Origin: Nitrospinaceae bacterium
GTDB lineage: Bacteria; Nitrospinota; Nitrospinia; Nitrospinales; Nitrospinaceae
NCBI GenBank assembly: GCA_028278405.1
Contig: JANQEK010000034.1
Span: 1-64,000, forward strand
Direction of reading: 5' to 3'
DNA length: 64,000 nucleotides
The notes beneath the pieces are model-generated. The model had not been told where the DNA came from and made no database searches. It worked only from the letters and a program-made list of their open reading frames with translations. Positions 34,671 to 41,153 of this stretch are shown piece by piece (the stretch's first letter is position 1; every line of letters starts with the position of its first letter). The translations under genes were made by a program, and so were the position numbers.

Positions 34671-36224
34671 TCACTTGCCTTTCAAGCGCAAGAGGTGCCA
34701 GAAGCTGACCACTTTGCTGGCATTTTTGTCTTTGCTGGATCCGTCCCATACAGCAAAGGCAACGGGAACGGGTATCCCCGATGAAAATTCGACATCCGTT
34801 CGGGGATAGGTAGAGAGATCCCGAACAAATACCACGATCCACTTTCCGTGAACCCATTGTCCCTGGCCTGTCACATGCTGGTTCTGTAGAGACTGAACGG
34901 TCAGGGTGTTGAATCCGGAAGAGTTCAATTCTTCCACTGAATTTTCAGTAAAGGGATTGACGTAAGCCTCGACCGAAGAGAGCCTGGTAGAAATAGCGGG
35001 TGCCTTTTTCCAGGCTTTCCAGTGCCAAAGGTTGACCGGTTTTTCAGACTCGCCCATTCCATAAAAAGGACTGTCTTCGATGGAGGTTTGTTTCATGGCA
35101 AACTGAATTGCCGCTTCATCCAGAAAAGGCACCGGACCCGTGGAAGCGGCTTCCGGGCTTGGATCGTCCCATTGCAGGCGGAAGGCGATCTGTTTATCGT
35201 TGTGTGCAGACTGCACTTTTAAACGATGGATAGGGTGGTTGCGGAACCGGATCGGTTTGAGTCTTATGTCGGTGGAAGGAACCGTATCCCACAAACGGTT
35301 CTGTGGTTCCAGAGTGAGAGGGTTCGCCACTCTGATAGAGATCAGTTCTCTCTCCTTTAGGTTTACGGGTCGTGGTGGATCCGAAAGAAATATCGACTGC
35401 AGGTAGTGGACCAGGTGCCAACGCTCGTCTTCGGTGAGGTAGTCGTATGCGGTCATCGGTGTGCCGTCCATTCCCGCCACCAGCGTTTGGTAAATCGCCC
35501 GTCCGGAGGCCCCGGCTTTATACAATTCCGGTCGTCTCAAATCATATACGTAGGAGGTGTGTCCCCAGATATCATCCAGCGATGCGTCGAGGGGGCCGGA
35601 CCGTTCGCCCGATTTACCGTGGCAACGAGCGCAACGCATTTGATGGTATAGCTTCTTCCCCTGGTTGGCAGATAGCGTCTCGTAGGGCAGCTCCATACCC
35701 ACCCGGATGCGGTAATCGGGAATTTCCCGGTTGAATCGGCCGGAGAAAGTTTTGATGTATTCGACCAGTAATTGGATTTCCTGTGCATTCAGCACGAGAT
35801 CCCAGGCCGGCATGGCGGTTCCAGGCACTCCCTGTCGGATGGTACGGGCCAAATCATCATCCACCGGCAGAGCGTTGTTCTGTGTGGAATGAAATTTGAA
35901 GATACCCGAACGCAGATCACGTGGTTTGGGGGATAGGTAATGGGTAGTGTCACCGTTGCCACGACCTTTGGGACCGTGACAGTGAACGCAGAATTTTTGG
36001 TAGATCGCTTTCCCGTCTTGGAGAAGCCGCTTTCTTTTTTCGTCCGAAAGCGCCTGCTCTTTTTCCGGCAGGGAATCTTCGATCATTTTTTCTACTTTAC
36101 GGGAATCCACCGCCCATGCCTGATGGATACCGGTGGTCTCCAAAAAAAACAGAAGACCCGACATGAACAGTAGAGGCCGCAACCGATAGAAAATACGGTT
36201 TGAAGTGTGGCGAGACTTGGGCAT
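34671..36224 (-). CDS. Diheme cytochrome c / EB_dh heme-b protein (NxrC-like), second copy
   Basis: 517 residues; N-terminal signal/anchor (LRPLLFMSGLLFFLETTGIHQAWA). Heme c sites CVHCH (79-83) with GTAMPAW and CARCH (198-202) with GTPMTAY, then an EB_dh heme-b domain (KPVNLWHWKAWK; SGIPVPVAFAVWDGS). It is collinear with the protein at 899-2482 over its whole length but differs in the linker and N-terminus. Here it leads an operon with an FGE-like protein and a molybdenum protein, so the two paralogues probably serve different molybdoenzyme partners (inference). Confidence 0.85.
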   Translation of the reverse strand: MPKSRHTSNRIFYRLRPLLFMSGLLFFLETTGIHQAWAVDSRKVEKMIEDSLPEKEQALSDEKRKRLLQDGKAIYQKFCVHCHGPKGRGNGDTTHYLSPKPRDLRSGIFKFHSTQNNALPVDDDLARTIRQGVPGTAMPAWDLVLNAQEIQLLVEYIKTFSGRFNREIPDYRIRVGMELPYETLSANQGKKLYHQMRCARCHGKSGERSGPLDASLDDIWGHTSYVYDLRRPELYKAGASGRAIYQTLVAGMDGTPMTAYDYLTEDERWHLVHYLQSIFLSDPPRPVNLKERELISIRVANPLTLEPQNRLWDTVPSTDIRLKPIRFRNHPIHRLKVQSAHNDKQIAFRLQWDDPSPEAASTGPVPFLDEAAIQFAMKQTSIEDSPFYGMGESEKPVNLWHWKAWKKAPAISTRLSSVEAYVNPFTENSVEELNSSGFNTLTVQSLQNQHVTGQGQWVHGKWIVVFVRDLSTYPRTDVEFSSGIPVPVAFAVWDGSSKDKNASKVVSFWHLLRLKGK

Positions 36225-37691: not shown

Positions 37692-38111
37692 TTAACTGAT
37701 CAGTCTGACAAAGACGAAAGCCACCATTATCAGCTGAGCCGTGTTCAATAAGACGCTGGCACGATGCAACCGCTCAAATGGTTTTGCAGATGAAGTGTCC
37801 CCGGCGAGTTGGGCATCCCTGTACTTGTTGATTATCGGCATCAGTACTTTCCATCCGAAGATAAACAGGGCGAAGACCAGAAACAAAAGTACCGAATTCT
37901 GTGTCCCAATGAAAAGGGCTCCCGCTAAAAAAGTCAGGGCGGCCATAGCCAGGCTGTAAACAGGAAACGCTTCCCTGATAAAAGGACCGGAGATGTCCGG
38001 AGGAAGCTTGGTGAATACCAGAGGAGTCATGATGCATGCGAAAAACATAATCCCGCCCAGGACCAGAGCAACCAGGATCAGACCCAGAATATGAATAATT
38101 TCAATTCCCAT
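37692..38111 (-). CDS. DUF4149-like (TMEM205-type) membrane protein
   Basis: 139 residues from the ATG with GAGGTGCGCA upstream. Four predicted membrane helices; conserved features of the DUF4149/TMEM205 type such as GGIMFFACIMTPLVFTKLPP, FPVYSLAMAALTFLAGA and ERLHRASVLLNTAQLI. Function unknown in bacteria. It is the last gene of the CarH operon and overlaps the preceding gene by 11 bases. Confidence 0.8.
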   Translation of the reverse strand: MGIEIIHILGLILVALVLGGIMFFACIMTPLVFTKLPPDISGPFIREAFPVYSLAMAALTFLAGALFIGTQNSVLLFLVFALFIFGWKVLMPIINKYRDAQLAGDTSSAKPFERLHRASVLLNTAQLIMVAFVFVRLIS

Positions 38112-38589
38112 TGCGCACCTCATTAGAATCGATTGTTGAATAAATATCCCAACTCAAATAAGACATTTGGTCAGCTTTTTGTTTGGATTCAAACAAAAAC
38201 ACCTTGATCTTGCATAGGGTGTATCTTTTCCCCTCTGAAATACTTTGAACAGCAATGTGGGGACGGATTTTCAGATATCTGGGAAAAGAGGCAGGATCTT
38301 CAGACACTCGTTTCAAATTCAAAAATTGTTCGCCTTTCCGGTTTGGATAAAAAGCAAAAAACATGTCGCTGTACTTTTTTGAGGACAAGGCTGCTCCATT
38401 GGTTTTGAATTCAATCTTCAAGCCGGCGTAGGGAGAGTGGGTTGATGGAAACCAATCACCGGATAATCTGGAGGGACAGCCGAGGTCCGTCCATTCGGGG
38501 TCACGCCAATCCAAAGCCCATGCCGGGGAAGCCACTGTTGAAACCAAGAAGGCAGCGATCAATGAATACCTATAGATGGATTTCCACAT
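38101..38589 (-). CDS. Secreted protein of unknown function
   Basis: 162 residues with a signal peptide ending PAWA|LDW. The mature part has four cysteines? only two are evident (LGCPSRLSG and TLCKIKV), suitable for one disulfide, and no motif I can place. It lies between the chelatase gene (6-base gap) and the DUF4149-like gene (11-base overlap), so it is part of the CarH-led operon and is presumably made in response to light or B12 status. Confidence 0.72.
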   Translation of the reverse strand: MWKSIYRYSLIAAFLVSTVASPAWALDWRDPEWTDLGCPSRLSGDWFPSTHSPYAGLKIEFKTNGAALSSKKYSDMFFAFYPNRKGEQFLNLKRVSEDPASFPRYLKIRPHIAVQSISEGKRYTLCKIKVFLFESKQKADQMSYLSWDIYSTIDSNEVRNGN

Positions 38590-38595
38590 CGTCCG

Positions 38596-39123
38596 TTACC
38601 TCACGGAAAGATTATTGGTAAAATCTGAAACGTGTTCGGCCAGCATTCCCGCTACGCGGTCCATGTCAAAGGGCCAGGCATAGACAAACTCAACATCAGG
38701 AAATTCCAGTTTGAGTTGATCCATCTCCTCTGGGATTTCCTTTTCGGAGTGGGAGCCACCGGGAGTGAACATGGTCGATATAATAAGGATGGTATTCGCT
38801 CCCTCTTGAACCAGGCGGCTTGCCGCTTTCTTTATGGTGGGATCGCAAAATTCGTTATAAGCCAATCCCATTGAATAGAAACTCAGGCGTTCAGCCAATC
38901 GGGAGGCCAGCGACTCCAGTCCGTATTTATAAGGATCCGTTGCCGGAGTTCTGGGCCAGGCTCTGACAATGCTGTCCAGATCCAATTCCTCTTCGCTTGG
39001 AGGCAGGTTTTCTTTTCTTCGTTTATTTTCAAGCCGTTTTAACTTTCCCGCCAGTTCTTCCGGGCAATCGGAGGGCCAGCCTCCGTGACCCACTAACAAA
39101 ACGGCCGTGTTTTTTGTATTCAT
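38596..39123 (-). CDS. CbiX/SirB-like chelatase (sirohydrochlorin chelatase or ferrochelatase relative)
   Basis: 175 residues. LLVGHGGWP and STMFTPGGSHSEKEIPEEM carry the two histidines that bind the metal in the chelatase superfamily (CbiX, SirB, ferrochelatase). It is longer than small CbiX and shorter than ferrochelatase, with a charged insert after the first motif. It may insert iron or cobalt into a tetrapyrrole, and its place in an operon with a B12-binding regulator links it to cobalamin or heme supply (inference). Substrate not determined. Confidence 0.75.
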   Translation of the reverse strand: MNTKNTAVLLVGHGGWPSDCPEELAGKLKRLENKRRKENLPPSEEELDLDSIVRAWPRTPATDPYKYGLESLASRLAERLSFYSMGLAYNEFCDPTIKKAASRLVQEGANTILIISTMFTPGGSHSEKEIPEEMDQLKLEFPDVEFVYAWPFDMDRVAGMLAEHVSDFTNNLSVR

Positions 39124-39169
39124 AATTTCACCTTCTGCGTTGTCCTAGGTCATCCAATGGATCGTCAAA

Positions 39170-39361
39170 CTAAGCCTGGTTGCCAGAATGATAATCCGCC
39201 GAATTGATTTGCTTTTTGTATTCACGCAGTAGAATTAACGACTCCATTTTCGCAGGTTGAGTTTTATTGAATGAATTCCAATAAGCTTTGCTCAGCTCCC
39301 GTGGTGAAACAACCTTCTTCAGGTTGCCTTTGGGATTGAATATTCGAACTTCGTAGAACAT
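39170..39361 (-). CDS. Small protein of unknown function
   Basis: 63 residues, basic, without membrane or signal segment. The ATG has AGAAAGGACAACTCTC upstream, a good ribosome binding site, and the gene fits between the CarH-like regulator and the chelatase gene in the same direction. The C-terminus (YKKQINSADYHSGNQA) is polar. I recognise no family. Confidence 0.6.
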   Translation of the reverse strand: MFYEVRIFNPKGNLKKVVSPRELSKAYWNSFNKTQPAKMESLILLREYKKQINSADYHSGNQA

Positions 39362-39391
39362 GAGAGTTGTCCTTTCTGCTCTAAAAAGAGT

Positions 39392-40333
39392 TTATGATTT
39401 CGACGGATCGGTGAGCGACTGATAAAAGCGGCTGAAATCACTGATAACCTTTGTTCCGCCGAGATTCTCAGGAGCACCGCCACCTCCCACCACAATATCC
39501 GTTTTGGAACTTAACTGCTTTCGGAGTCTCCACAAAATAGGCTTGGCGCGGGAAACCCCGTACCAACCGGAAACACTGATGCATAGCAACGGGGCTCCAC
39601 ACTGATTCACCGCCTTAACCATGTCCTCTTCCGGTGTGTCCAATCCCAATGAAACGATCTTCCAATCGGTGGTCGATACCACCACCGCACACATTTGAAG
39701 ACCCAGAATATGACTTTCTCCCGGAAGTGTCGCAAGAATTACAGTTTTGCCGTGTTTACGTTCATTCTGACGACGCCAATGGTTACCCAGGAAGTTACTC
39801 AATATGTCGGTTGCAAAATGCTCATGAGCCACTGAGAGATCGCCGCATTCCCAACGATCTCCAATTTGTTTTATTAATGGGGCCGCCAGATTAGTGATGA
39901 ACGCCAAGGGTCCCTGCAGTCCCCATTCCTGATGCATTTCAAAATTTAAATTTTCTTCATCGTATTCACTGATCCAATCAATCCATTGATTGATTTTGGA
40001 ATCATACTGGTCTTGCAGAAAATCAGATTGAGTAGAAGGCGACACCTTGGAGGAGCGTTTCGATTCAAAACCCATGAGGTTGTGCAACTCCTCCAAAGTA
40101 CCGCCCACAACTTTACCCGCACGAAAACCCAACTTGATGGTCCGGGCAACAGCTCGCAACCGTTCGATTTCCTCAGGGAGATAACGCCGATGCCCCGAAG
40201 GCAACCGGATTGACTTCGGTGAATCGTAGCGTTTCTCCCAGATTCTCAGGGTGTGCGTGCTGATCCCGGTCCTTCTTGAAAGTTCTCCGATTGTGAGTAA
40301 ACTTTCGTTCTGATTTTCTACGGCTGCTAACAT
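39392..40333 (-). CDS. CarH/LitR-type B12-binding MerR-family regulator (light sensor)
   Basis: 313 residues. The N-terminal MerR helix-turn-helix (LTIGELSRRTGISTHTLRIWEKRY, RRYLPEEIERL) is followed by a helical-bundle plus Rossmann B12-binding domain. Two diagnostic motifs are present: W-x9-EH (WECGDLSVAHEH), which holds the 5'-deoxyadenosyl group in CarH, and E-x-H-x-x-G (ESHILG), whose histidine ligates cobalt. Such regulators repress in the dark with adenosylcobalamin and release DNA on illumination. It is the second gene of a six-gene operon whose promoter has matching palindromes, so autoregulation is likely. Confidence 0.85.
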   Translation of the reverse strand: MLAAVENQNESLLTIGELSRRTGISTHTLRIWEKRYDSPKSIRLPSGHRRYLPEEIERLRAVARTIKLGFRAGKVVGGTLEELHNLMGFESKRSSKVSPSTQSDFLQDQYDSKINQWIDWISEYDEENLNFEMHQEWGLQGPLAFITNLAAPLIKQIGDRWECGDLSVAHEHFATDILSNFLGNHWRRQNERKHGKTVILATLPGESHILGLQMCAVVVSTTDWKIVSLGLDTPEEDMVKAVNQCGAPLLCISVSGWYGVSRAKPILWRLRKQLSSKTDIVVGGGGAPENLGGTKVISDFSRFYQSLTDPSKS

Positions 40334-40372
40334 AATTGGTATCCAGATAAAGGTTGCTAAAAATAGGTCTTC

Positions 40373-41059
40373 TTACATATTGGTTTGATTCGAGTTCATT
40401 TGAGCCACTTCATTGTTGGACAGATCCATGATTTTCAAACCGCCGCTGGTGCGCTCCGCCATGATCGTTTGTCCATCGATCACGGTATGAAACCGATTTC
40501 CAACTTTGATGTTATAGTTGCTCAGTACATTCTGCTCGAACTTGGTGAGTCCGACAAAAACCGTCCCTTTAACATTCAAGCGATCAGCAATTCGGTTCTG
40601 GGTCGATTCACCGAAAGACCATTCGTAAGGCGTCATGGCATGATCGTGTCCTGAATGGCTGGCGCTACCGGTAGAAATCCGGGAAATCCAATTCAAGTCT
40701 CGAATCGGGAGCTGCTCCAGGGCAACAATATTCATCATTCCGCTGTCCATGATTTGAATACCTCCGGAGGTCCGTTTGACGTAAGCGTTGACTCCATCCA
40801 CCTGGGCGGTGAAGATATTGCCGTCTCGGATGCCATAGTGTTCCATAGTTTTTTGCTCATGAGATGAGAGCCCCACGTAATAGCCGTTTTCCTGCAGGGT
40901 TCCGCGGGATTGAATCTTGGCCTCAACCTTTTTGGAAAATTTCCATTGAAGAGAGAGTTTGGAGTGATCGTGCTCGCTGTGGGCGGATGCCATGTTGGCG
41001 AACAGAAACAAACTGGCGGTTGCGGCTGTCAAAGTTTGGATGATTGTCATGGATTTCAT
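40373..41059 (-). CDS. Secreted protein with two tandem copies of an unknown domain
   Basis: 228 residues from the ATG after AAGGAGATTCAAA. Signal peptide ending ASA|HSE. The mature protein is His-rich at its start (HSEHDH) and consists of two repeats of about 75 residues that share the pattern W.F.....I..R......Y VGL...E......Y.I..GN.F...VDG......RTSGG(I/L)(Q/K)IMD. It is a duplication of a domain I do not recognise. It is the first gene of the CarH-controlled operon, so it is likely the most strongly light- or B12-responsive product. Confidence 0.8.
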   Translation of the reverse strand: MKSMTIIQTLTAATASLFLFANMASAHSEHDHSKLSLQWKFSKKVEAKIQSRGTLQENGYYVGLSSHEQKTMEHYGIRDGNIFTAQVDGVNAYVKRTSGGIQIMDSGMMNIVALEQLPIRDLNWISRISTGSASHSGHDHAMTPYEWSFGESTQNRIADRLNVKGTVFVGLTKFEQNVLSNYNIKVGNRFHTVIDGQTIMAERTSGGLKIMDLSNNEVAQMNSNQTNM

Positions 41060-41103
41060 TTTGAATCTCCTTGTTTGAGTTTTTAAATTATCAGATTTAT
41101 TAA

Positions 41104-41120
41104 TTAGACACAATGTCTAA
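41104..41120. promoter_or_regulatory. Palindrome downstream of the -10 box (candidate CarH operator)
   Basis: TTAGACA-CAA-TGTCTAA, a perfect inverted repeat. It would lie at the transcription start to +16 of the minus-strand promoter, where a bound repressor would block the polymerase. Confidence 0.65.
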
Positions 41121-41125
41121 GTACA

Positions 41126-41153
41126 ATATTAGACAAATATCTAGATTTGTCAA
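41126..41153 (-). promoter_or_regulatory. Operator-overlapped sigma70 promoter of the CarH operon
   Basis: On the minus strand TTGACA and TAATAT are 16 bases apart. The spacer is filled by the inverted repeat GACAAAT-ATCTAG-ATTTGTC, and it shares the half-site TTAGACA with the downstream palindrome, 25 bases away. Transcription would start about 60 bases before the ATG at 41059. Confidence 0.7.

Follow-up and report, generated by a model that had tools for sequence, protein, structure and literature searches.

Nitrification is inhibited by light, and Nitrospinota are the ocean's main nitrite oxidisers. We asked whether a gene cluster of Nitrospinaceae that encodes a protein resembling the B12-dependent photoreceptor CarH is a light- and vitamin B12-controlled operon, and what such an operon would control. 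In the literature that we searched, no paper treats Nitrospina and CarH together, and there is no report of a B12-type light sensor in Nitrospinota. The locus was analysed within a stretch of 64,000 nucleotides (the window), in the genome that the window belongs to, and in related genomes.

Organization of the operon

Six open reading frames lie on the minus strand from 41059 to 37692 and form a single transcription unit. Neighbouring frames are 39, 30, 46 and 6 bp apart, except for one pair that overlaps. A preliminary description of this DNA had proposed just such a six-gene operon, with the regulator at its head; the operon stands, but its first gene encodes a secreted protein and the regulator is second. 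The features are as follows.

41126 to 41153, minus strand: sigma-70-type promoter, TTGACA-N16-TAATAT, with an embedded putative operator, TTGACA-N12-TGTCTAAT (GACAAAT...ATTTGTC inverted repeat)
41104 to 41120, minus strand: perfect inverted repeat TTAGACA-TTG-TGTCTAA surrounding the presumed start site, its half-sites at +34 and +43 as counted from the T of TTGACA
40373 to 41059, minus strand: gene 1, secreted protein, 228 aa; two domain copies of about 75 aa, each preceded by HSxHDH; no Pfam family
39392 to 40333, minus strand: gene 2, CarH-type MerR and B12-binding regulator, 313 aa
39170 to 39361, minus strand: gene 3, small protein, 63 aa; N-terminus like that of a DUF2256-like zinc-finger protein from relatives' operons
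38596 to 39123, minus strand: gene 4, CbiX-like class II tetrapyrrole chelatase; two conserved His, in VGHGG and GGSHSE..IPEE
38101 to 38589, minus strand: gene 5, small secreted protein; beta-barrel model, weakly like streptavidin and lipocalin barrels
37692 to 38111, minus strand: gene 6, DUF4149-like membrane protein

Gene 1 most likely starts at 41059 and not at an upstream TTG at 41113, which lies within the palindrome. The flanking NifU-like and sigma-54-activator genes are outside the operon. Downstream of it on the same strand (34671-36224), the window also encodes a secreted protein of 517 aa that has two CxxCH motifs of the cytochrome c type.

The regulator is of the CarH type

The product of gene 2 combines a MerR domain (PF13411, 47.6 bits), whose recognition motif RIWEKRY differs from the RxWERRY type by a conservative R-to-K change, with the four-helix bundle and Rossmann B12-binding domain expected of a CarH. 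The former of these B12 domains (B12-binding_2, PF02607) scores 35.6 bits, above the cut-off, and the latter (B12-binding, PF02310) scores 31.6 bits, just under its cut-off of 32.1. Thermus CarH is matched with a phmmer E-value of 2.7e-21 and provides the nearest solved structures. The protein scores 103.4 bits against the 400 bits of the NCBIfam CarH equivalog cut-off, which is an annotation threshold and not a functional criterion.

Both motifs that had first drawn attention to this protein, W-x9-EH (here WECGDLSVAHEH) and E-x-H-x-x-G (here ESHILG), are present. The W is absent in CarA (PMC9304148), and an intact W-x9-EH separates the regulator from CarA and places it with CarH. The published light-sensing signature of CarH, consisting of GxxW, EH, GxxH and GxxxP (PMC11796333), is complete as GDRW, EH, GESH and GLDTP. 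Likewise, the B12 motif ESHILG-x41-SVS-x27-GG fits the spacing of D/ExHx2G-x41-SxT/V-x22-27-GG, with Ser replacing Thr/Val. The domain plan, W-x9-EH, ExHxxG and the four-part signature are shared with the class I LitR/CarH proteins of Thermus thermophilus and Bacillus megaterium, whereas class II LitR has no Rossmann B12 domain and acts together with a LOV protein (PMC9758184). By these main sequence criteria the regulator is of the CarH type, and it would be expected to bind adenosylcobalamin.

One residue departs from Thermus CarH. The position following the Trp, which is His132 in Thermus and contributes to bis-His cobalt ligation in the light state (PMC10442372), is occupied by Glu in the window protein and in most of its clade. 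Arg, Gln or Tyr are found there in other photoreceptors (PMC11796333). Because of the Glu, the light-state chemistry of this regulator may differ.

The Nitrospinota proteins of this type (CarH-A) form one order-specific clade (n = 40, SH-aLRT 95), apart from CarH-B, described below, and the outgroups. The Ado-contacting W and E are kept in nearly all members, but 7 of the 40 have another residue in place of the cobalt-ligating His of ExHxxG, namely Tyr in six that form one clade (L069, L070, L072, L075, L077 and L080) and Gln in L068. All seven retain W-x9-EH, and five of them retain the pairing of gene 1 with carH. B12 ligation may have been naturally lost or altered in these homologues, and because of them some clade members may not use B12. 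They are one ground for supposing that control in the clade has drifted to independence from B12, in the manner of Myxococcus CarA or of a class II LitR acting with another photoreceptor or antirepressor, so that the operator would be real and the signal indirect. We regard this as quite unlikely for the operon studied here, given that the window protein retains every signature residue and that the Trp missing from CarA is kept almost throughout the clade.

An operator overlaps the promoter

The promoter and palindromes described upstream of the operon were recovered exactly: TTGACA (from 41153) and TAATAT (to 41126) are 16 nucleotides apart, the -35/-10 region contains the inverted repeat GACAAAT/ATTTGTC, and TTAGACACAATGTCTAA occupies 41104-41120 without a mismatch. 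A simple promoter scan is uninformative alone, as it found 5 promoters against 6.4 expected, which is not above chance. We also trained a promoter profile on 10 promoters from other families only, leaving out the family of the window. This profile scores 53.6 bits at 41112, compared with -9.5 bits for the highest-scoring position in the rest of the 64-kb window.

No other exact copy of the palindrome at 41104-41120 exists in the 3.16-Mb genome. When the genome was searched with TTAGACANNNTGTCTAA, the operon's own site was the sole exact match, and near-matches were fewer than with a reversed-pattern control. The genome-wide search for TTAGACA palindromes that had been recommended therefore returns the operon's own site and no further exact one; given this single site, the regulon probably extends no further than this operon.

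In relatives belonging to several families, the region upstream of gene 1 repeats the arrangement TGTCTA ... TTGACA-N12-TGTCTAATAT ... TAGACA. Across 61 related genomes there are exactly 12 instances of TTGACA-N12-TGTCTAAT. Eleven are at promoters of the module (ten before gene 1 and one before carH), and the other is inside an unrelated ORF. In 27 promoters we counted 143 TnnACA/TGTnnA half-sites, compared with 56.7 ± 6.4 (maximum 73) in dinucleotide shuffles; 97 are left when the positions that anchor the alignment are removed. Measured from the first T of TTGACA, the half-sites concentrate at -33, 0 and +34 in forward orientation and at -14, +18/19 and +43 in reverse, the one at +34 being conserved in 13 of the 27 promoters. 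This comparative evidence places the palindrome beyond chance, and since the sites compared share ancestry, it speaks for selective maintenance of the site and not for binding. As judged from these comparisons, the palindromes are a real operator that is conserved across the order.

Two rearranged loci indicate that the operator travels with its targets. In L067 a cbiX-gene 5-DUF4149 set is divergent from carH, and TTGACA-N12-TGTCTA is present on both sides; in L212 a gene 1-epimerase pair has the exact operator and no adjacent carH. The latter pair (L212 5368-8154, genome G008), which contains a third, unlinked copy of gene 1 followed by the epimerase gene, is a predicted trans-regulated target.

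The half-sites match the published CarH repeat, nnnnTnnACAn (PMC9304148), and overlap the promoter at -35, -10 and the start region. As in Thermus and Bacillus, TnnACA half-sites overlap the -35 element and the regulator gene lies within its own target operon. However, the Thermus and Bacillus operators consist of three or four tandem repeats at 11 bp, whereas the orientation of the half-sites in the window alternates over -35, -10 and the start. At the Myxococcus crt promoter, the CarA/CarH operator is likewise a TnnACA array across the promoter in which inverted repeats were noted (PMC9304148). This likeness to the CarA operator is a second point for B12-independent control. In Myxococcus, though, the inverted repeats show no conservation, and direct repeats were concluded to be the bound element (PMC9304148), whereas the alternating order found here is conserved across families at fixed spacing.

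The same order offers an internal contrast in CarH-B, a second CarH paralogue (23-26% identical), most copies of which, among those inspected, have tandem 11-bp TnnACA repeats between divergent genes, for example TTGACAAACATTAAACA. CarH-B was found at L207 3289-4194, L208 12574-13497, L209 6275-7198, L210 6798-7715, L214 5930-6847, L216 6136-7065, L217 6789-7715 and L218 1849-2781, and our search found none in the genome of the window. It is mostly divergent from a conserved gene set, which in L207 includes FGE-sulfatase-family proteins and cytochromes c.

Relatives of the operon carry light-stress genes

Gene 1 is directly upstream of carH-A on the same strand at 30 of the 40 loci. Within 6.5 kb of these 40 loci we found CbiX at 23, gene 5 at 17 and DUF4149 at 10, together with a TIGR01777-like epimerase/DUF1731/polyketide-cyclase protein (12 loci), a DUF2256-like zinc finger (11), a peroxiredoxin-like protein (7) and a lipocalin (5). 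Lipocalin and epimerase genes also adjoin CarH relatives in some other phyla. At L078 the operon adjoins a photolyase gene. L207, which is from the genus of the window, groups a CbiX-like homologue (53% identical) with BLUF-PsiE, photolyase and CarH-B; in this genome, the CbiX copy of the CarH-A operon has been lost. The BLUF protein in this second CarH cluster is one more observation that would suit B12-independent control by way of another photoreceptor.

The preliminary description had pointed out that the operon lacks the usual photolyase and carotenoid genes, which is correct and sets its targets apart from those of Thermus and Bacillus CarH. The absence of a photolyase gene from the operon is uninformative, since none was detected in the whole genome. 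That the operon is a new regulon holds insofar as its content is outside the known photolyase and carotenoid regulons; the versions in relatives nevertheless carry light-stress genes, one of them next to a photolyase. Light-inducible stress genes adjoining a LitR/CarH-family regulator are also the pattern of the class II LitR regulons of Pseudomonas (PMC9758184), to which the present operon would correspond if, as predicted, it is induced by light.

Products of the operon and the supply of B12

The CbiX-like protein matches PF01903 with 49.2 bits. Its His13 and His125 are invariant in 18 homologues and align with the paired catalytic His of solved chelatases, and it shares with the class II chelatases CbiX, CfbA and SirB the Pfam match, the profile match to solved structures and the His of GHG and GSHSE..IPEE. 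It differs from them by an insertion of about 55 residues after the first His motif and by scores far under the NCBIfam equivalog cut-offs. CbiC was detected neither in the genome of the window nor in 27 of the 31 genomes searched. With none found here, de novo B12 synthesis is an unlikely role for the CbiX-like protein, and a part in B12 biosynthesis, which we had considered, is weakened. The protein may instead metallate a photosensitising free tetrapyrrole. Published Nitrospinae genomes are those of B12 auxotrophs with uptake and salvage (PMC8026999), and the window genome has a PduO-type adenosyltransferase. It also encodes a second CbiX-like protein (G000:C17:96210-96464, open frame 185 aa), relatives of which, of similar size, occur in other genomes without CbiC.

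A chelatase gene in the operon of a B12 auxotroph, for which supply matters (PMC8026999), raises the alternative that the regulator mainly senses adenosylcobalamin and represses a tetrapyrrole- and B12-handling operon when B12 is plentiful, light being incidental; the Glu in place of the light-state ligand His132 would agree with this. We consider it unlikely. Without CbiC the chelatase cannot feed a full B12 pathway, the companion genes in relatives are of light-stress types, and the Ado-contacting W and E have been kept in nearly all members of the clade. In addition, no Rfam family, cobalamin riboswitch included, was found near the operon.

Of 64 genomes of the order, 27 were found to have a member of the gene 1 family; none was found in the 13 genomes from the rest of the class, and no Pfam family matched the protein. 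Neither profile searches (best E 0.41) nor Foldseek (best E 0.18) gave a credible relative, and a FeoA-like domain, our first guess, was not supported. For gene 5, the best structural match to streptavidin and lipocalin barrels (E 0.0095, low TM) is too slight for a name. In genome G001 a fusion joins the 63-aa gene to the C-terminus of a gene-5-type protein (L045 5319-5510) and is a scar of the deletion that took out the CbiX gene.

The HSxHDH motifs of the secreted protein, together with the chelatase homologue and the DUF4149 membrane protein, could also be read as a metal or heme-export stress operon with no photoprotective role that uses a CarH-like regulator by chance. This is very improbable, as the regulator carries a B12 sensor and not a metal-sensing MerR domain, and the genes that accompany it in related operons are not metal genes.

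Discussion

The evidence argues, in our judgement with good though not overwhelming probability, that this is an autoregulated photoprotective operon of Nitrospinota under adenosylcobalamin-dependent repression in the dark, relieved by light. In the dark, scavenged B12 would be converted to adenosylcobalamin and bound by the regulator, which would oligomerise, occupy the array of TnnACA half-sites over the -35, -10 and start regions and block RNA polymerase. Light, expected to be effective from green to near-UV, would break the Co-C bond, the repressor would leave, and the operon would be transcribed. Its effectors, namely the duplicated secreted protein, the secreted beta-barrel, the CbiX-like chelatase and the DUF4149 membrane protein, would be exported or act on tetrapyrroles or membranes and so limit photo-oxidative damage. 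The anatomy of the operon, its conservation, the specificity of the operator and the linkage across the order are shown directly. We infer cofactor binding, repression, release by light and the product roles, the dependence on light and cofactor being read from sequence motifs. Counting against a light switch are the Glu at His132, the alternating half-sites, the missed NCBIfam cut-off, the His loss in seven homologues and the lack of a photolyase or carotenoid gene in the operon.

More broadly, and with slightly less than even confidence, we propose that B12-auxotrophic nitrite oxidisers among the marine Nitrospinota gate an undescribed photoprotective programme (a secreted duplicated-domain protein, a tetrapyrrole chelatase and a secreted barrel) on scavenged adenosylcobalamin and light. 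The means would be a CarH clade whose light-state cobalt chemistry differs, Glu replacing His132, and an operator of alternating inverted half-sites.

A conserved CarH operon would provide a direct molecular handle on the light response of Nitrospinota. It would tie that response to vitamin B12 obtained from neighbours and would define new light-response effectors, including a protein family absent from Pfam. Mechanistic and optogenetic work also gains from it a CarH operator design not yet tried and a natural photoreceptor that lacks His132.
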